DNA of 64,000 bases from Ruegeria sp. R14_0 (GTDB lineage Bacteria > Pseudomonadota > Alphaproteobacteria > Rhodobacterales > Rhodobacteraceae): NCBI RefSeq assembly GCF_017743975.1, contig NZ_JAGHRC010000001.1, positions 620,001 through 684,000 of the forward strand, written 5' to 3'. Positions 6,233 to 15,231 of the stretch are shown here, in pieces. The stretch's first letter is position 1; each line of letters opens with the position of its first letter. The position numbers and the translations under genes were made by a program. The notes beneath the pieces were generated by a model that worked only from the letters and a program-made list of their open reading frames with translations, had not been told where the DNA came from and did no database searches.

Positions 6233-7498
6233 TCAGCTTTTGACCGGTGGCAGGCGAAACGCATAGGCCACGGCGATCAGGTTCAGCACCAATAGGGCAA
6301 AAATCGGCGTAAGTGGATCGTGCAGATGCGCCACGGCCCCAAGGATCGCCGCAAAGACCATTCCGACGAGACCCGCGCTGACGTCTCCCAAAGCGACCAG
6401 GTAGGGGCGCTCTTGCTCGGCGCTCATCTGAATAAGGTAAAGGTAGCGCCCGTATATGACCCCGTTCCCGCCCAGTGAAAGCAGCATGATCACCAGTGCA
6501 TAGGCCCAGACATTCTGGGCATAGCCGAGGAAAGTGAAGCCCAATGCCATCGCGGCCGATACCGCGGCGATCATGCAACCCAGCCACATGACCGGTTTGA
6601 CCGAGATCCGATTGCTGAGCCATCCCCACAGGATCGAACCGATGACCATCCCCAGGCTGGCACCGATCACGAAATAGCTGAGTGAGTGCTTGGTTCCCAT
6701 GTGCAGCGTCGCGGCGTGGATGGTGTAGAAGGGCATTGCCAGCTCGACCGAGACAAAGATCAGACGCGCCGTCAGGAACTTGCGGTACCACCGATAGGCC
6801 ATGCCGGTCTTGAACCCGGTTGCCAACTCGGCCAATGGTTTATGCTTTTTCGCAGGATTTAGTGCGACGGCCTGTTCCTCTTCCAGCAGTTGCACGCCAG
6901 CAAAAGCGACGCCAGCGGCGAACATCGCGATGACACCGCACCACAGGACGACGATGTGGCGTTGCATCGGTTGATCGCCCGAAAGCAGGTCGCGGGTAAC
7001 CAGCACAACGATGATGGCGAGAACGCCGGAAATGGTGGCCTGCGCGAACACCATCCGGTTCCGTTTCTCGGCCGGGACCGACATGCCGTAGATCTGGCTG
7101 GTGCCAAGGCTGGTGATCCCCTGACACAACCCCAAGACAATCGCGGTGGTCAGGAACAGCAGCACGATCATGAGGCCGGGTAGTTTGGTTGAAAACAACG
7201 CAACGGTCGCCAGCACACCCGCAGTCAACAGGTTCGGAGCATAAACCGCCAGCTTTGCGCGGGTGATGCGGTTGATGAAAGGCGAGACAAATATCTCAGC
7301 AATCAGCCGCGACCCGGTGACAAAGGGCAGAAGCATGCCGGCAAAGAAGGTTGGCGCGCCCAAGGCCAGATAGAGGAAGGGCAGAACAAGGTTGGGGTTG
7401 ATCAACTGTCCCCCGATCGTCGCCAGCGCCCCGGACCAGAAGATCAGGAAATAGTTTCTGCCTTCCGAGGGTTGTTTTTGCGAGTATGTGTCCGCCAT
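6233..7498 (-). CDS. MFS transporter, substrate unknown
   Basis: About 421 residues with 12 predicted membrane helices in two halves around a loop with [17 protein letters not shown] near the middle. This layout fits the major facilitator superfamily. The N-terminal half carries the motif [20 protein letters not shown] in place of the usual motif A loop. I see no residues that fix the substrate. The ATG at 7498 is chosen over an upstream TTG. It is divergent from anmK (162 bp apart), so a role in anhydro-muropeptide or sugar uptake is possible but only inferred from position. Confidence 0.75.
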
Positions 7499-7660
7499 GT
7501 GCACCAAATTCCGATTTGTGTTCCTTATACCAAACTACAGGGAAAAAGCGCGCGCCTTGTGCGATCTGCCTTGCCTTGGCTTTTGATCAAGGGGCAGTTT
7601 AAACGGGCAACGCCGCTCAACCATGACGGTGTTCACGTACCAAGCGCAGGAGAGACAAGC

Positions 7661-8949: not shown

Positions 8950-8985
8950 AAAGGAAACGGCTCCCAATTTTTTTCGGGAGCCGTG
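8950..8985 (-). terminator. Terminator of the HlyD operon
   Basis: ACGGCTCCC (8957-8965) pairs with GGGAGCCGT (8976-8984). Read on the minus strand, the stem is followed by TTTCCTTTTTTGC. It lies about 30 bp past the HlyD stop codon. Confidence 0.8.
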
Positions 8986-9013: not shown

Positions 9014-10231
9014 TCAGGCGTGTCCGCCACCGATCAGGCCGATGCCCGAGGTCAGGCCAAACCAGGCTTTGACCCGCAGACCAACCGCCTTGATGATACC
9101 CATTGCCTGGATACCGTGGGCGACAAGTGTTCCTTCCATGTCACCTTCAAAACTGGTGGTGTAGGATTGGACGATACAACCACTTCCGGGTACCAGAAGT
9201 TCGCGGTGCTCTGGGTGTACGAGGTCCAGATGAACGACGACCTGACCCCGTTTCGCCTTTTCACTAGGCTCGATCAGTCGACCGCTGGGCGCAAGCTGCC
9301 CGGAAGAGATCGACTCTTGAATGCGTACGATCCTTGCTGGAAGAACCGTATTGCGCATCGAGATGTTGAAGTTGCTTTCACACGCCACTTCCGCAGCCAT
9401 GCCTTCGTACAACTCAGTGCGGGAGACTTGCGAGAACCCGGCCACGATACGTCCGCGCTCAGCGTCTTTGCGGTCAGGGACGATCAGCATAGCGGGGCTC
9501 ATGGCCGCCTGAGCGGCACGCGATCCAACGTTGAGCGTGACCTGTTCGACCACACCGTTCACCGAGCTAAGCGTCAACGTTTTGGACAGTTCGACCTGGG
9601 CCTGTTTCAGCGACGCACGCGCCGACGCAAGCTGGGCTGGCAAAACGGCGTTCGCCTGAACTTGCGCTACACCCAGTTGTGTTTCAGCGGCTTCAACTTC
9701 TGCCTCGCGCGTATCCAAGGTCGCTTGGGCCCGTTCCAATTGGCTTACCTGAAACGCGGCAGACCCTTTGGCTTGCAAAGCGCGGTGATCCAACAGAACC
9801 AGTTTTGCCTGCTCTCTGGCGGTGAGCGCCGCGTCCAGAACGGCCTGTGCCGTTTCGACTTGCAACTCGGCCGCCAGTTTCGCGCTTTCGATTTCCTCGA
9901 CTTTGCGCTGCGCGAAATCAACTGCGGCCTGTTCAGACGCGTTCTCGACGGCGAACAGCGGGTCACCAGGCTGGACACGTTCTCCGCCCTTTACGAATAC
10001 GTCCGTGACGGTCCCACCATTTTCGGCCACGACAGGTACAGTCCGGAACGGGACAAGGCCGGTGTAGGACTTGGGATAGTAATAGAACACCGCAAAAAAG
10101 ACGATCAGGGCCAGTACAAACCACATAAAGACCGCACGATGGACGTTGTAGAGCGTTACGGGCATCCCGCGCCATTTCAGATAGATCACGCGCAGGACAA
10201 ACGGAAAAGATGTGACGAGAAGTTCGATCAT
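9014..10231 (-). CDS. HlyD-family membrane-fusion (periplasmic adaptor) protein
   Basis: About 405 residues. A single membrane helix (about residues 28-50, AVFMWFVLALIVFFAVFYYY) anchors it in the inner membrane. Then come a half-lipoyl segment (VVAENGGTVTDVFVKGGERV), a long alpha-helical hairpin rich in Ala/Glu/Gln (about 100-190), the second lipoyl half (SSVNGVVEQVTLNVGSRA) and a beta-barrel domain. Such adaptors bridge inner-membrane pumps to outer-membrane channels, but no pump or TolC gene is nearby. The ATG at 10231 overlaps the stop of the upstream 126-residue membrane protein by ATGA, so the two are translationally coupled. The operon is preceded by a putative AraC-type site at 10925-10957. 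Confidence 0.85.
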   Translation of the reverse strand: MIELLVTSFPFVLRVIYLKWRGMPVTLYNVHRAVFMWFVLALIVFFAVFYYYPKSYTGLVPFRTVPVVAENGGTVTDVFVKGGERVQPGDPLFAVENASEQAAVDFAQRKVEEIESAKLAAELQVETAQAVLDAALTAREQAKLVLLDHRALQAKGSAAFQVSQLERAQATLDTREAEVEAAETQLGVAQVQANAVLPAQLASARASLKQAQVELSKTLTLSSVNGVVEQVTLNVGSRAAQAAMSPAMLIVPDRKDAERGRIVAGFSQVSRTELYEGMAAEVACESNFNISMRNTVLPARIVRIQESISSGQLAPSGRLIEPSEKAKRGQVVVHLDLVHPEHRELLVPGSGCIVQSYTTSFEGDMEGTLVAHGIQAMGIIKAVGLRVKAWFGLTSGIGLIGGGHA

Positions 10232-10608
10232 TTCACCATCTCCTCTTTCGAAGGACGCCACCACAACATGAAGTCGCGAGCGATTGCGGTCAGGATCAGG
10301 GCGCCCGGCAGCAGGTTGCTAAAGTGGCTGAGTGCAGGCATCAGCTCATACGCCAGCGCCACGGTCAGCATCGTCGGAATAGTTGTCCGCAGCGGAGTGC
10401 CGATTGATTTGTGTTCGGTATAGCGTTCAAAGCGCGCATAGAGATGTACGACCAGCAGGATGGCAAGGGCGAGAACGACCAAGCCGACCCATGCATAAGT
10501 GTCGGTTTGATTGGGCGCGACCCACCATCTGGGATCGCCGCCTGCGGCAAAGGCAGGCGTTGAGATGAGCCCAAGTACAGGCGCCATCAGGAACGTGGGT
10601 GGTTTCAT
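10228..10608 (-). CDS. Small inner-membrane protein, unknown, coupled to the HlyD protein
   Basis: 126 residues. A possible signal peptide or first helix (residues 5-22, ending AFAAGG) is followed by a Trp-rich periplasmic segment (GGDPRWWVAPNQTD). Two to three further hydrophobic helices (about 40-60, 78-95 and 100-117) and a charged end KEEMVK follow. I do not recognise a domain. Its stop overlaps the HlyD start (ATGA), so it may be the membrane partner of that adaptor, replacing the small YibI/DUF-type partners seen with some HlyD proteins elsewhere; this is inference. Confidence 0.75.
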   Translation of the reverse strand: MKPPTFLMAPVLGLISTPAFAAGGDPRWWVAPNQTDTYAWVGLVVLALAILLVVHLYARFERYTEHKSIGTPLRTTIPTMLTVALAYELMPALSHFSNLLPGALILTAIARDFMLWWRPSKEEMVK

Positions 10609-10671
10609 GTTTCAAGTCCTTTTGTTGCGCAGCCAAGCTGCGCGTGTCGGTTTTTTGGTGTCTTGAGAACG

Positions 10672-10869
10672 TCAATTCTCGGTTGGTTTTTGTACGGGTT
10701 CTGATGGTCTCTCCTGCGGAGAGTAGGGTGGATCCCAACGACGCCCGTTCGGTGTTTTCTCGCCAAGTGGTGAGGTGTGCAGACCGTGGATGTTCCCCCC
10801 GGACCACTCTTGTTTGGCGGAGTTTTGGATTGCCCTTAGTACGCGGTAGTACCTTGCGAAGTAGATCAT
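10672..10869 (-). CDS. Small unknown protein, first gene of the HlyD operon
   Basis: 65 residues, MIYFARYYRVLRAIQNSAKQ at the start and a Pro/Arg-rich polar remainder. No membrane helix or known domain is seen. It is kept because an AAGGA Shine-Dalgarno lies 7 bases before the ATG, the gene is 63 bp from the next on the same strand, and it begins at the right distance from the putative regulator site. Coding potential could not be tested further; it may instead be part of a leader. Confidence 0.45.
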   Translation of the reverse strand: MIYFARYYRVLRAIQNSAKQEWSGGNIHGLHTSPLGEKTPNGRRWDPPYSPQERPSEPVQKPTEN

Positions 10870-10924: not shown

Positions 10925-10957
10925 GGGTTCTGGACATTTGTTATTGGCTTCTGGACA
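10925..10957 (-). promoter_or_regulatory. Putative AraC-type operator: 21-bp direct repeat (HlyD operon/regulator)
   Basis: On the minus strand TGTCCAGAACCC (10936-10925) and TGTCCAGAAGCC (10957-10946) are repeated 21 bp apart. On the plus strand TTCTGGACATTTG and TTCTGGACAATTG agree at 12 of 13 positions. The site lies 55 bp before the small ORF that opens the HlyD operon and 49 bp before the regulator's GTG, so it could also serve autoregulation. The motif is nearly identical to the one upstream of cydA. Confidence 0.65.
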
Positions 10958-11006: not shown

Positions 11007-12014
11007 GTGCCACGCATCAGCGCTTACAGATTGCAAAACGTTGGGTTGCGCTATTCGCAAGAACCCGGAGCGCGCATTCCGTTTCCTGAAGTCTTAGAGA
11101 TGGCTGGGGTACCCGTTGATATCGGCAACAGCCCCGACGCCACTGTCGAGCTGCTTCATGAGGCGGGTGCAGTTGAAACTGCGTGCCGGGTTCTGGAAGA
11201 CAAAACCTTCGCCGCGCGAGTGGGGCTTGCGGCGCAAGGTCCGGGAACGCTTCTGGCTTACATCGTGCGGGCAGCCGAAACGGTGGAAGACGCGCTGGCT
11301 TTGACACAGCGCTTTTATGCAATGCAAGACCCTGACCTGCGCTTAGACGTCGTGGGGGCACCAGATGAGCCAAAGATCACTCTGGAGAGCAGTGTTATCC
11401 CAGCGCATCAATATCCTCGCCACCGTGAAATGCTGATATTTGGTCTTTACAAGCGAGTTCAACAAATCACCTCTGGCGGGCTTGCCCCGATCTCTATCGA
11501 GTTGGAAACGGACGATGCCGAGCACTGTAGGCAACTGGCGGATTTGGCAGGATGTGAAGTCTCAGGCTTCAAATCCGGATACGCCTTGGCTCTGCCCTCA
11601 AACGGCATGAGTTTTCGGATACCAACGGCAGACCCCACCTTATTGGGGCATTTACGCAGGCACGGAGAAGAGCAATTGAAGGCTCGGCCTGATGCTGTCC
11701 GCAGTCTATCCGACCGCATTGTAGACATGCTTGGAGAGCGTCTTCCCGGACCGATACCAAATGGCGACGATATAGCCGGAGAGCTTGGACTGACGCGGCG
11801 CACTATGACCCGGCACCTGTCGGCCGAGGGAACAAGCTTTAAAGCACTTTTAGAAGGGGTGTTGTGCGACTTGTCCAAGCGGATGCTTCGTAGTGGAGAA
11901 GGTGTTGCCCGGGTTGCCTTCATGCTTGGATTTGCAGATCAGGCCGCCTTTTCGGTGGCGTTCAAGCGCTGGACAGGTGAAACACCCGCCAGGTTCCGTA
12001 GAGCTGGCCGATAA
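11007..12014 (+). CDS. AraC-family transcriptional regulator with N-terminal sensing domain
   Basis: 335 residues. The first 200 residues resemble the Arabinose_bd-like sensing and dimerisation domain of OruR-type AraC regulators. The last 90 hold a two-helix-turn-helix AraC domain: DIAGELGLTRRTMTRHLSAE for the first motif and VARVAFMLGFADQAAFSVAF with FKRWTGETPARFR for the second, the typical family end. The GTG at 11007 has a GGGGAGG Shine-Dalgarno 8 bases upstream, so I prefer it to a longer form. It lies between the HlyD operon (divergent) and the glycine-zipper and cydAB genes, all preceded by similar 21-bp repeats, so it is the natural candidate to bind them. The ligand is unknown. Confidence 0.88.
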   Translation: MPRISAYRLQNVGLRYSQEPGARIPFPEVLEMAGVPVDIGNSPDATVELLHEAGAVETACRVLEDKTFAARVGLAAQGPGTLLAYIVRAAETVEDALALTQRFYAMQDPDLRLDVVGAPDEPKITLESSVIPAHQYPRHREMLIFGLYKRVQQITSGGLAPISIELETDDAEHCRQLADLAGCEVSGFKSGYALALPSNGMSFRIPTADPTLLGHLRRHGEEQLKARPDAVRSLSDRIVDMLGERLPGPIPNGDDIAGELGLTRRTMTRHLSAEGTSFKALLEGVLCDLSKRMLRSGEGVARVAFMLGFADQAAFSVAFKRWTGETPARFRRAGR

Positions 12015-12148: not shown

Positions 12149-12448
12149 ATGAACCCTATGAAGACCTCGAAGAAACTTTTTATCGCCCCGATCTCAGGCG
12201 CACTTCTGATCACCATGGCTGCGACTGCTCATGCTGACTACGTCACCGACAAAGCGATTAAGGGTGCAGTTGTCGGTGCCACTGTCGCCGGTATCGCTGG
12301 CGAAAGCATCGTGGGTGGCGCTGCAGCGGGTGCCGCAGTTGGGGCCGTGGGCGGCGCGATCCAGAAGGACAACTTCGAAGACGCGCAGGACGAAGCTCAA
12401 GAGCGTCGTGACGACTTCAAAGAAGAGCATAATGACTGGAACGACTAA
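12149..12448 (+). CDS. Small exported glycine-zipper protein
   Basis: 99 residues. A signal peptide (about residues 1-29, ending ATAHA) is followed by a hydrophobic Gly/Ala segment with repeated GxxxG spacing (GAVVGATVAGIAGE, then GGAAAGAAVGAVGGAI). A highly charged tail (DEAQERRDDFKEEHNDWND) ends the protein. This is the YMGG/glycine-zipper layout seen in small periplasmic or outer-membrane associated stress proteins. A second ATG four codons in (MKTSKK) could be the true start. A perfect-looking hairpin terminator follows about 130 bp downstream, so it is probably monocistronic. Function unknown. Confidence 0.8.
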   Translation: MNPMKTSKKLFIAPISGALLITMAATAHADYVTDKAIKGAVVGATVAGIAGESIVGGAAAGAAVGAVGGAIQKDNFEDAQDEAQERRDDFKEEHNDWND

Positions 12449-12694: not shown

Positions 12695-12727
12695 TGTCCA
12701 AAACCCAAAAACAACCGTCCAGAACCC
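12695..12727 (+). promoter_or_regulatory. Putative AraC-type operator: 21-bp direct repeat (cydAB)
   Basis: TGTCCAAAACCC (12695) and CGTCCAGAACCC (12716) are 21 bp apart and match the motif at 10925-10957; the second unit with its flank (CAACCGTCCAGAACCC) agrees with the minus-strand HlyD site at 14 of 16 positions. The start codon of cydA is 121 bp downstream. Confidence 0.65.
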
Positions 12728-12847
12728 AAACGAACTGAAACCGGCACCACCCCAAATCCGGCTCATCTGAATGACATCGACGAGCTGGCAGCTGAAGTGC
12801 TTTTGTTCCCTGCCACACTTTGCAACCCAATGCCAAAGGACACGGCA

Positions 12848-14230
12848 ATGAACCTATTCGCAAACTTCGACGCAGAGACCCTGGCACGCATCCAGTTTGC
12901 CTTTACTGTGTCGTTCCACATCATCTTCCCGGCCTTCTCCATTGGCTTGGCCAGCTTTTTGGCCGTTCTCAACGGCCTCTGGCTATGGCGCAAAGACAAG
13001 GTCTACCTCAACCTCTTCAACTACTGGAAAAAGATCTTCGCCGTAGGCTTTGCCATGGGCGTCGTGTCCGGCATTGTGATGTCTTACCAGTTCGGCACGA
13101 ACTGGAGCGTATTCTCGGACACCGCAGGCCCTGTTATTGGGCCCTTGATGGCCTACGAGGTCATGACAGCCTTTTTCCTCGAGGCTGGTTTCCTCGGCAT
13201 CATGCTCTTTGGTCGTGAACGCGTCGGTCCCAGTTTGCACATGATGGCCACGGCGATGGTCGCCCTTGGCACGTTGATTTCGGCCACGTGGATCTTGTCG
13301 GTCAATTCATGGATGCAAACCCCGGCTGGTTTCGACATCAACGAACTGGGGCAGTTCATTCCCGTTGACTGGTGGTCGATTGTTTTCAATCCGTCTTTTC
13401 CGTACCGACTGACACACATGGTTCTTGCCGCCTATCTCACCACTGCTTTCGTGGTGGCCGGGGTTGCGGCCTGGCATTTACTACGCCGCAATCGCACGGC
13501 TGAGGTCACCCGAATGTTCTCGATGGCAATGTGGATGGCCGTTCTGGTCACCCCTGTGCAGATCGTTGCCGGCGACCTTCATGGTTTGAATACGCTGGAG
13601 CATCAGCCGCAGAAAGTGATGGCGATGGAAGGTCACTTTGACAGCCACCCCGAAGGTGCACCGCTGATCCTGTTCGGCATTCCAAACGAAGAAGAAAAGC
13701 GCGTGGACTACGCCATCGAAATCCCGAAACTTTCATCGTTGATCCTGAAACATGACCTGAATGCGCCGCTTGATGGGCTGGACACTATTCCTGACGACGA
13801 AGAACCCCCGGTCGCAATCGTATTCTACAGTTTCCGCATCATGCTCGCCATCGGCTTTGCCATGCTGGGTATCGGCTTGTGGTCGCTTGTTCAGCGAGTT
13901 CGCGGCCGCCTCAACGACGATCGCTGGTTGCAGCGGACATCCGTTCTGTTGGCGCCTAGCGGGTTTGTGGCGGTACTGGCCGGTTGGATCACTACCGAAG
14001 TGGGGCGCCAGCCGTACACGGTTTACGGGCTCATGCGGACATCCGATTCCCTCTCCCAAGTTGATGCGCCTGCAGTTGCCGCGTCTCTTGTTGCCTTCAT
14101 CGTCGTGTACTTCGCGGTGTTCGGAGCGGGCACATTCTACATGCTGCGCTTGATGGGAAAACCACCCGTCGAAGCTTGCCACAAAAGTCACAAACCCACT
14201 GAAATCTTGACCAAAGCGGAGGCAGCGTAA
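12848..14230 (+). CDS. cydA: Cytochrome bd-type quinol oxidase subunit I (cyanide-insensitive type)
   Basis: 460 residues, about nine membrane helices. Subunit I holds the haems and the quinol site and reduces oxygen to water at the inner membrane. His24 in FTVSFHIIFPAF is the expected haem b595 ligand. The helix with YRLTHMVLAAYLTT carries the haem b558 His, and GRQPYTVYGLMRT is the conserved GRQPW-like motif. The Q-loop is short, as in the CIO/CioA branch. I start at MNLFANFDAETLARIQ because AAGGA lies 8 bases before this ATG. The TAATG junction couples it to cydB. No cydDC assembly genes are nearby. Confidence 0.93.
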   Translation: MNLFANFDAETLARIQFAFTVSFHIIFPAFSIGLASFLAVLNGLWLWRKDKVYLNLFNYWKKIFAVGFAMGVVSGIVMSYQFGTNWSVFSDTAGPVIGPLMAYEVMTAFFLEAGFLGIMLFGRERVGPSLHMMATAMVALGTLISATWILSVNSWMQTPAGFDINELGQFIPVDWWSIVFNPSFPYRLTHMVLAAYLTTAFVVAGVAAWHLLRRNRTAEVTRMFSMAMWMAVLVTPVQIVAGDLHGLNTLEHQPQKVMAMEGHFDSHPEGAPLILFGIPNEEEKRVDYAIEIPKLSSLILKHDLNAPLDGLDTIPDDEEPPVAIVFYSFRIMLAIGFAMLGIGLWSLVQRVRGRLNDDRWLQRTSVLLAPSGFVAVLAGWITTEVGRQPYTVYGLMRTSDSLSQVDAPAVAASLVAFIVVYFAVFGAGTFYMLRLMGKPPVEACHKSHKPTEILTKAEAA

Positions 14231-15231
14231 TGCTTGAGCTTTCGACAATCTGGGCAGTTATCATTTCCTTTGCCGTTCTGACTTATGTGATCCTAGATGG
14301 GTTCGATCTTGGAATTGGGATCCTCTTTCCATTCGCAAAAACCGACAAAGATCGCGATGTCATGATGAACTCGGTCACGCCTGTGTGGGACGGGAACGAG
14401 ACTTGGCTGGTCATGGGAGGCGGAGGTTTGTTCGCCGTTTTTCCGCTAGCGTACTCTGTGGTGATGCCCGCGATCTATTTGCCCGTTATCGTGATGCTTC
14501 TCGCGCTTGTCTTCCGCGGTGTCGCCTTCGAATACCGGTGGCGCACGGTGCGCGGGCGTTGGCTTTGGGATGTTGCGTTTTACGGTGGGTCAACCGTAGC
14601 CGCCCTCTGCCAGGGCATCGCGCTTGGCGCGCTGGTCCAGGGTATCCCGGTCGAGGAACGGCTGTACGCAGGCGGGCAGTGGGATTGGCTGACGCCGTTC
14701 TCTGTCCTCACGGGTGTGGCCTTGGTGATCGGGTATGCCTTGCTAGGCGCGACCTGGCTCAATATGAAAACAACGGGCGGAATACAGCGACAGATGCGTT
14801 CTTATGCCCGCCCGCTGATGCTTATGACGCTCGGGTTGATTGGCCTAGTCAGTCTTTTGACCCCGCTCCAAGATCCAATCTATCTGATCAGATGGTTTTC
14901 TTGGCCCGGTGTCGTTTTCTCTGTGTGTGTGCCGGCTGTTGTTGCTCTCATTGCATGGATGCTTCATCGCGGCCTGAAGACACAGCGCGACTATCTGCCC
15001 TTCTTCTGCGCAATTGCCTTGTTCGTCGTGTGCTTCTTTGGCATTGGGATCAGTTTCTATCCCTATATGCTACCCCCAAGCCTCACGATTGCCGAAGCCG
15101 CAGCGCCGGACAGCAGCTTGGCCTTTGCTCTGGTCGGAGCCGTCATACTTCTGCCTGTGATCCTGGCCTACACCGCCTACACGTACTGGGTTTTCCGCGG
15201 AAAGATCGATCCAGAGGAGAGTTTCCATTGA
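14230..15231 (+). CDS. cydB: Cytochrome bd-type quinol oxidase subunit II
   Basis: 333 residues with eight or nine membrane helices. The N-terminal VILDGFDLGIGILFPF and the VWDGNETWLVMGGGGLFAVF motif are characteristic of CydB/CioB. It pairs with CydA to form the oxidase heterodimer and has no haem ligands of its own. The start codon overlaps the cydA stop by one base (TAATG), and its own stop overlaps the TTG of the small third subunit, so the three are one operon. Confidence 0.93.
   Translation: MLELSTIWAVIISFAVLTYVILDGFDLGIGILFPFAKTDKDRDVMMNSVTPVWDGNETWLVMGGGGLFAVFPLAYSVVMPAIYLPVIVMLLALVFRGVAFEYRWRTVRGRWLWDVAFYGGSTVAALCQGIALGALVQGIPVEERLYAGGQWDWLTPFSVLTGVALVIGYALLGATWLNMKTTGGIQRQMRSYARPLMLMTLGLIGLVSLLTPLQDPIYLIRWFSWPGVVFSVCVPAVVALIAWMLHRGLKTQRDYLPFFCAIALFVVCFFGIGISFYPYMLPPSLTIAEAAAPDSSLAFALVGAVILLPVILAYTAYTYWVFRGKIDPEESFH

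Follow-up and report, generated by a model that had tools for sequence, protein, structure and literature searches.

On the reverse strand of the window (the whole stretch of 64,000 nt from Ruegeria sp. R14_0 that was analysed), an operon codes for a small protein of 65 residues, a membrane protein of 126 residues (P0003), and a periplasmic adaptor of the HlyD type (P0002) (Table 1). A preliminary description of this DNA had claimed these three genes as one operon, and its gene order and coordinates are correct. So is the ATGA coupling between the latter two genes (10231-10228), an overlap which 22 of the 27 related loci examined for it have retained. The adaptor gene starts with the ATG at 10231, the listed ORF with a GTG start and extending to 10264 being 11 codons longer. 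A purine-rich stretch precedes the start codon of each of the three genes. The operon's own terminator, also claimed before, was recovered as a well-formed hairpin followed by a T run (the surrounding 74 nt fold with a z-score of -2.6, equalled by 4 of 200 shuffles); the terminator scan as a whole returned 5 terminator-like sites versus 4.6 from shuffles, i.e., no excess.

The divergently encoded regulator P0005 exceeds the cut-offs for the AraC family (PF12833 [HTH_18], 66.7 bits; PF12625 [arabinose-binding-type N-terminal domain], 50.6 bits). Further downstream on the same strand are the genes for the two subunits of a cytochrome bd oxidase, both over their cut-offs (CydA, PF01654, 557 bits; CydB, PF02322, 340 bits). 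Between the AraC gene and cydA, an ORF (12149-12448, forward strand) codes for a 99-residue glycine-zipper-like, secreted-looking protein without a Pfam match.

Table 1. Features of the adaptor operon and its divergent neighbours (positions within the window)
Feature	Position	Strand	Remarks
Intrinsic terminator of the adaptor operon	8957..8984	-	Hairpin of 11 pairs, then T run
HlyD-type periplasmic adaptor P0002, 405 aa	9014..10231	-	Assigned by fold model
126-aa membrane protein P0003, paired with the adaptor	10228..10608	-	DUF3302-like in position, perhaps remotely related
65-aa small protein	10672..10869	-	Ruegeria-type loci only; dN/dS 0.20; in frame in 16/16 loci
Operator-like direct repeat TGTCCAGAA-N12-TGTCCAGAA	10928..10957	-	58 nt before the 65-aa gene
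AraC-family regulator P0005, divergent	11007..12014	+	Probable GTG start at 11007, from relatives; ORF opens at 10938
Second operator-like repeat	12695..12724	+	Upstream of cydAB
CydA, cytochrome bd oxidase subunit I	12848..14230	+	Probable ATG start at 12848; ORF opens at 12797
CydB, cytochrome bd oxidase subunit II	14230..15231	+	Family match

The reading frame of the 65-codon ORF is intact in all Ruegeria-type loci compared, with the median dN/dS calculated from 113 pairs. By these measures, it is a real gene on which purifying selection acts in these 16 loci. It was not found in the loci from Roseibium or Pseudovibrio. For the 126-residue protein, the same comparison gave a dN/dS of 0.08, by which purifying selection on this protein is strong.

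P0002 exceeds none of the curated adaptor cut-offs (best score 48 bits to TIGR00998, with a cut-off of 391), and no Pfam adaptor family matched over its cut-off. Judged from its predicted structure, it is an HlyD-type adaptor by fold, not by the Pfam and NCBIfam models. The structure model (mean pLDDT 77, pTM 0.49) has the adaptor fold with a lipoyl/barrel-sandwich domain and an alpha-hairpin; it contains a membrane helix (27-51), two hairpin helices of about 56 residues each (98-154 and 162-216), and a C-terminal helix (369-398) that is modelled with low confidence. The nearest solved fold is that of EmrA (8zal, 8zar; Foldseek E 2.3e-18), and a second comparison gave a Z-score of 16.6 with an rmsd of 14.0 over 314 residues. 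Structure matches to colicins, Tc-toxin stalks, and cilia proteins cover the coiled-coil hairpin part only and were disregarded. EmrA from the EmrAB-TolC system shares the long hairpin with P0002, but sequence identity is 16-17% and the partner of EmrA is the MFS pump EmrB, for which the operon in the window has no such gene. Similarly, the AaeX-AaeA-AaeB system has the gene for a small membrane protein before the adaptor gene and a divergent regulator gene (aaeR), but it includes a pump gene (aaeB). The energised inner-membrane pump by which tripartite efflux is defined is not encoded in the operon, nor is there an evident energy source for active export by the pair. The absence of a pump and of an outer-membrane channel from the operon, as previously described, is thus confirmed.

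Against Pfam and NCBIfam, the 126-residue protein matched nothing better than chance. DUF3302 (PF11742) gave no match at E-values up to 1, and the protein is therefore not classed as a member of that family. Its structure model is weak (mean pLDDT 65, pTM 0.37). Of 101 relatives searched (own genome included), 16 have a homologue, as do 14 of 295 genomes from the family and 2 of 385 from the class, these sets being overlapping. A scan of contigs for this protein type resulted in 27 loci, 14 from Ruegeria, 1 from an unclassified member of the Rhodobacteraceae, 5 from Roseibium/Labrenzia, and 7 from Pseudovibrio. Together with the window, L062, and 13 others, 42 loci are available, 41 of which are distinct since L107 and L037 represent one and the same place. 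The adaptor gene directly follows the gene for the P0003-type protein in all 42 (41 distinct) loci. In one Pseudovibrio assembly (L044), the genes are broken into pieces.

A pump gene always adjoining the operon in relatives, which had been named beforehand as a finding that would speak against the proposal, was not encountered: with five types of pump searched, a pump-like neighbour within 400 nt was detected at 1 of the 41 distinct loci. The references for this search were E. coli AcrB, EmrB (cut), MdtO, AaeB, and MacB, so that pumps of other types could escape. The one pump-like neighbour (L110, 7891-10088) is a MacB-like pair of ABC ATPase and permease, 163 nt downstream of the adaptor gene. 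The flanking genes mostly differ between genera; cydAB is common to 8 of the 27 scan loci, and a gene for an Arg-rich protein is common to Roseibium and Pseudovibrio.

Pairs of a small membrane protein and an HlyD-type adaptor are known from E. coli K-12, which carries two of them without a pump, YiaW-YiaV and YibI-YibH (DUF3302 + HlyD). As in the window, the small membrane protein is encoded immediately ahead of the adaptor in an operon devoid of a pump, and the adaptors YiaV and YibH resemble P0002 in their N-terminal anchor and in their C-terminal LR-x-x-x-W stretch. They differ by having only 21-22% sequence identity to P0002 and by lacking its pair of cysteines (see below). P0003 differs from YiaW and YibI in not matching PF11742, and the regulator adjoining the pair is of the AraC type in the window but of the LysR type (YiaU) at yiaV.

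Such pairs are widespread. A search of 398 genomes from the phylum gave a DUF3302 match at E 0.001 or better in 50 and one over the cut-off in 44. This search yielded 68 places, of which 60 were new to the locus survey, 3 were already part of it, and 5 are outside it; with further loci and those from E. coli, 67 loci were surveyed, L061 being left out (a weak DUF3302 match with stops, where neither gene was seen). The adaptor gene is directly downstream in 66 of the 67 loci, the exception being a weak match (L163). A gene for an outer-membrane factor comes next after 7 of the 66 pairs (L056, L059, L154, L155, L157, L158, and L160), and an RND pump is encoded upstream of a single pair (L161), where the pump is itself preceded by another adaptor gene. 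At four loci with distant DUF3302-HlyD pairs (L164, L166, L173, and L175), weak matches to the AraC family (22-25 bits) are found just upstream and divergent.

Two further pairs of this kind are encoded in the own genome. In L057, the adaptor is paralogous to P0002 (30% identity) and the protein encoded before it has a weak DUF3302 match (E 1.3e-5), which is below the cut-off. The other, on the same contig as the window (L056, 5684-8952), has a DUF3302 protein over the cut-off and an adaptor, followed by the outer-membrane factor gene. Apart from this one, the genome contains three genes for outer-membrane factors that exceed the cut-off. Given that pumpless HlyD pairs recur, with two of them in E. 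coli, the operon in the window is less odd than had been supposed. We are highly confident that it is a pumpless pair of the DUF3302-HlyD (YiaW-YiaV) kind.

Another close correspondence is to seven DUF3302-like pairs from the same class (L162, L165, L167, L168, L171, L172, and L174), here called group B. These and the L057 paralogue are the sister group in the adaptor tree and have the same gene order and the same cysteine pair; they differ in that their adaptors are 30-32% identical to P0002 (four compared) and in that their small protein is nearer to DUF3302. A profile comparison by hhalign gave 79.8% (E 1.4e-5) for P0003 against group B and 67% in a separate run, in which 0 of 40 shuffles exceeded 50%. 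The score was 49.5% against a mixed set of five and 29% against canonical DUF3302 proteins, for which 1 of 40 column-shuffled controls reached 99.4%. An initial comparison between P0003 and DUF3302, with a score of 99.7%, was discarded because proper grouping lowered it to the 29% (canonical) and 67% (group B) just given and because of that one shuffled control. HMM A1 matches L172 at E 7e-4. A P-x-x-x-D-like pattern near the N-terminus recurs in the small proteins of both the P0003 type and group B, which also resemble each other in layout. With moderate support from the profile comparisons, their common descent is likely rather than certain.

In the adaptor tree, 26 rows of the P0003 type and 9 rows from DUF3302-like pairs (7 from group B, L057, and L170) form a clade of 35 rows with an SH-aLRT support of 100 in both trees computed. 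The 26 rows are one side of a branch with support values of 91 and 81. EmrA, AaeA, MdtN, MacA, AcrA, and YhiI are outside of this clade but nested among other DUF3302-linked adaptors, with long branches, and thus a single family for all pumpless pairs is not established. Both trees were computed without 16 near-identical or duplicate rows and without adaptors of up to 290 residues (e.g., the partial one from L060); L161_124, which has a very long branch, was left out of the second tree.

Throughout the 35 rows of the clade, the cysteines C284 and C352 do not vary; they may possibly form a disulphide. This pair is absent from the 55 other DUF3302-linked rows, from the 3 rows to which no small-protein neighbour is assigned, and from 8 references (AcrA being out of frame there). 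The RLS motif, the part of which in TolC binding is addressed in the relevant passage of PMC3391258, was searched as a regular expression. It matches 2 of the 26 P0003-type adaptors and 4 of the 6 pump-linked references from E. coli (MdtN, MacA, YhiI, and AcrA, but not EmrA and AaeA). The hairpin tip has the leucine L152 without exception (27 of 27 rows), and the R and S positions of the motif are otherwise occupied in nearly all of them.

The preliminary description had suggested that the 126-residue protein may be the partner of the adaptor. This is partly borne out, the strict pairing in 42 of 42 loci and the parallel to DUF3302-HlyD pairs both being in line with it. Physical contact, which we infer from this pairing, is probable.

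In the window as well as in each of the 27 scan loci, the AraC gene is located beside the pair in divergent orientation; it was not found in L062, nor adjoining the pair in L108-L119. Between this gene and the operon, a direct repeat with a period of 21 nt is found in all 16 Ruegeria-type loci aligned (TGTCCA(G/A)AA-N12-TGTCCAGAA). The repeat in 9 aligned loci from Roseibium and Pseudovibrio is TGTCCA(G/A)AA-N12-TG(G/A)CCAGA. Because of its place, we assign the repeat to the AraC protein as its predicted binding site. When up to 2 mismatches were permitted, it was detected in 16 of 54 genomes from the genus, 15 of which carry the module while one has the AraC gene alone; the reversed pattern was found in none of the 54. 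That single genome (G003; L231, G003:C29:43000-53000) has kept the AraC gene, the repeat, and the glycine-zipper gene, but no adaptor pair, 65-aa gene, or cydAB was detected in it; the locus seems to be either a vestige or a case in which the regulator is used independently. G006, which has a diverged pair, has neither the AraC gene nor the repeat nearby. Group B loci have no such site at up to 3 mismatches, and L057 has one match with 3 mismatches. In the own genome as a whole, 24 matches with up to 3 mismatches (one without mismatch, two with 2, and 21 with 3) compare to 6 matches of the reversed pattern. One of the sites with 2 mismatches (G000:C11:5089-5118) was taken as a chance match; it is near the 3' end of an ORF (L205:5046-5804, reverse strand) and its spacer differs.

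What is new here is a second copy of the operator-like repeat ahead of cydAB, outside the coordinates of the operon; the preliminary description mentions neither the operator nor this copy. At up to 3 mismatches, the window has 2 matches versus 0.01 expected. The site precedes an adjacent cydAB in nine module-bearing genomes, the own genome included, with 29 of 30 columns invariant compared to a regional mean of 15.8. It is also kept in G033, which has its cydAB roughly 10 kb away from the module: identity is 17 of 18 positions for the half-sites, 8 of 12 for the spacer, and 209 of 417 for the whole aligned region, and 0 of 387 other placements are as good. Thus, the site is kept at cydAB in all 10 module-bearing Ruegeria-type genomes with an intact cydA (9 adjacent and G033). 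The repeat is absent, at up to 3 mismatches, from all 5 intact cydAB loci that are not linked to a module (G013, G016, G004, G042, and the second copy from the own genome), the CydA identity of which is 72-74% for G013 and G016 and 46-49% for the other three, which are of a more distant type; fragments in G029 and G025 are outside this count. An intact cydA is present in 10 of 15 genomes with the module versus 4 of 39 others, the Fisher p of 8e-5 not being independent evidence because most cases represent one linked locus in related genomes. In 5 of the 15 module genomes, there is no cydA. From this sequence conservation, we consider it very likely that one regulator controls both the operon of the pair and cydAB.

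In 8 genomes from Roseibium and Pseudovibrio, 11 sites were found with up to 1 mismatch: 8 before the module, one after the adaptor gene, and two in unrelated ORFs (the stray sites of L246 and L248, both inside coding ORFs other than cyd genes). None of the 11 is at a cyd operon, and for this reason the link to cydAB is so far a Ruegeria-type feature and the oxidase is not a general client of the pair. Five Roseibium-type loci have a second operator-like copy after the adaptor gene (L038, 7697-7726; L039, 7772-7801; L040, 7760-7789; L041, 7759-7788; L046, 4138-4167), 93-100 nt ahead of the gene for a small protein that is rich in Arg and has a signal-like start. In the Pseudovibrio loci, the Arg-rich protein is mostly present and the second site was not found. 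This protein family had no match in the other surveyed loci outside Roseibium and Pseudovibrio.

Our best explanation as a whole, which may equally well prove right or wrong, is that the operon codes for a pumpless pair like YiaW-YiaV, acting as a stress-induced trans-envelope unit that is co-regulated with an inhibitor-resistant oxidase. The 126-residue inner-membrane protein would replace a pump as the membrane platform of the adaptor, and the adaptor oligomer would span the periplasm up to an outer-membrane factor encoded elsewhere. The AraC-type regulator would sense a signal and turn on the pair together with the cytochrome bd oxidase. Tolerance of inhibitors, cyanide and nitric oxide among them, is a general trait of cytochrome bd enzymes, and it is for this reason that a defence against an inhibitor is proposed. 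The likeliest purpose would be protection from a membrane-active or respiration-blocking compound, which would combine resistant respiration with removal or exclusion of the compound. As to the individual steps, export through a shared outer-membrane channel is conceivable, with our view leaning slightly against it, and it is doubtful that the pair and the bd-type oxidase constitute one AraC-controlled defence against a respiratory inhibitor with the small protein as a substitute for the pump.

A different role fits nearly as well, and we hold it to be rather unlikely: the pair might be an envelope scaffold (a tether linking the membranes, or a factor for assembly or for the handling of lipids), from which the bd oxidase or the integrity of the membrane would perhaps benefit. 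The lack of an evident energy source, the lack of the RLS motif in most P0003-type adaptors, and the operator common to the pair and a membrane-bound oxidase are all consistent with a scaffold, but outer-membrane factor genes follow 7 of the 66 DUF3302-type pairs, and none of the sites with up to 1 mismatch in the 8 genomes from Roseibium and Pseudovibrio is at a cyd operon. The preliminary description had also suggested that the adaptor serves a distant pump. We consider it unlikely that P0002 works with a pump from another locus and that the small protein is an accessory of that pump, like AaeX beside AaeAB. While the fold of P0002 is nearest to that of EmrA, an adaptor of an MFS pump, and L110 has its MacB-like pair, the remaining 40 distinct loci have none of the reference pumps within 400 nt, and flanking genes mostly differ between genera. 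The window does contain an MFS transporter gene (6233-7507, reverse strand) 1.5 kb past the operon, separated from it by the terminator and by a gene for AnmK on the opposite strand. In the 27 related loci, with up to 6 kb covered on each side, neither of these two genes was detected. That the operon is the remnant of a pump operon which lost its pump, as the missing pump and the fragmented genes in L044 might indicate, is very improbable in view of the strong purifying selection on the small protein, the retention of the pair without a pump across several genera, and the conserved operator.

The statements on DUF3302-HlyD pairs that are cited here are those of individual passages or lists. 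YiaV is listed as an uncharacterised protein of the MFP family (PMC10971958) and yiaV as a predicted efflux pump component (PMC3646849). E. coli yiaV is said to affect antimicrobial drug tolerance, with earlier work cited for this, and yiaV is associated with clinical isolates of Vibrio vulnificus (both in PMC10485832). YiaW is given as an inner-membrane protein of unknown function, an insertion mutant having had no effect in a phagosome assay (PMC5495878). Deletion of yibI in E. coli UTI89 led to lower fitness in urine and to reduced adherence (PMC5404293), and a yibH knockout is among the low-growth strains in a table on ornidazole (PMC9405208). YiaU, encoded next to yiaV, is described as a regulator of yiaT and an LPS operon (PMC9068703). 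For a coral-associated Ruegeria population, enrichment in cytochrome bd is reported, with HlyD and AraC not occurring in the text (PMC13313319). Among the matches listed, titles and the opening parts of abstracts contain no link between an HlyD adaptor and cytochrome bd through an AraC regulator.

DUF3302-HlyD pairs are widespread and little studied, and the hints from these sources (drug tolerance, urinary fitness, a predicted efflux component) come without a mechanism or a partner. Because the pair in Ruegeria shares its operator with cydAB, its function becomes testable via the inducer. If true, defence against an inhibitor would be the first functional handle on trans-envelope units of the DUF3302-HlyD kind.
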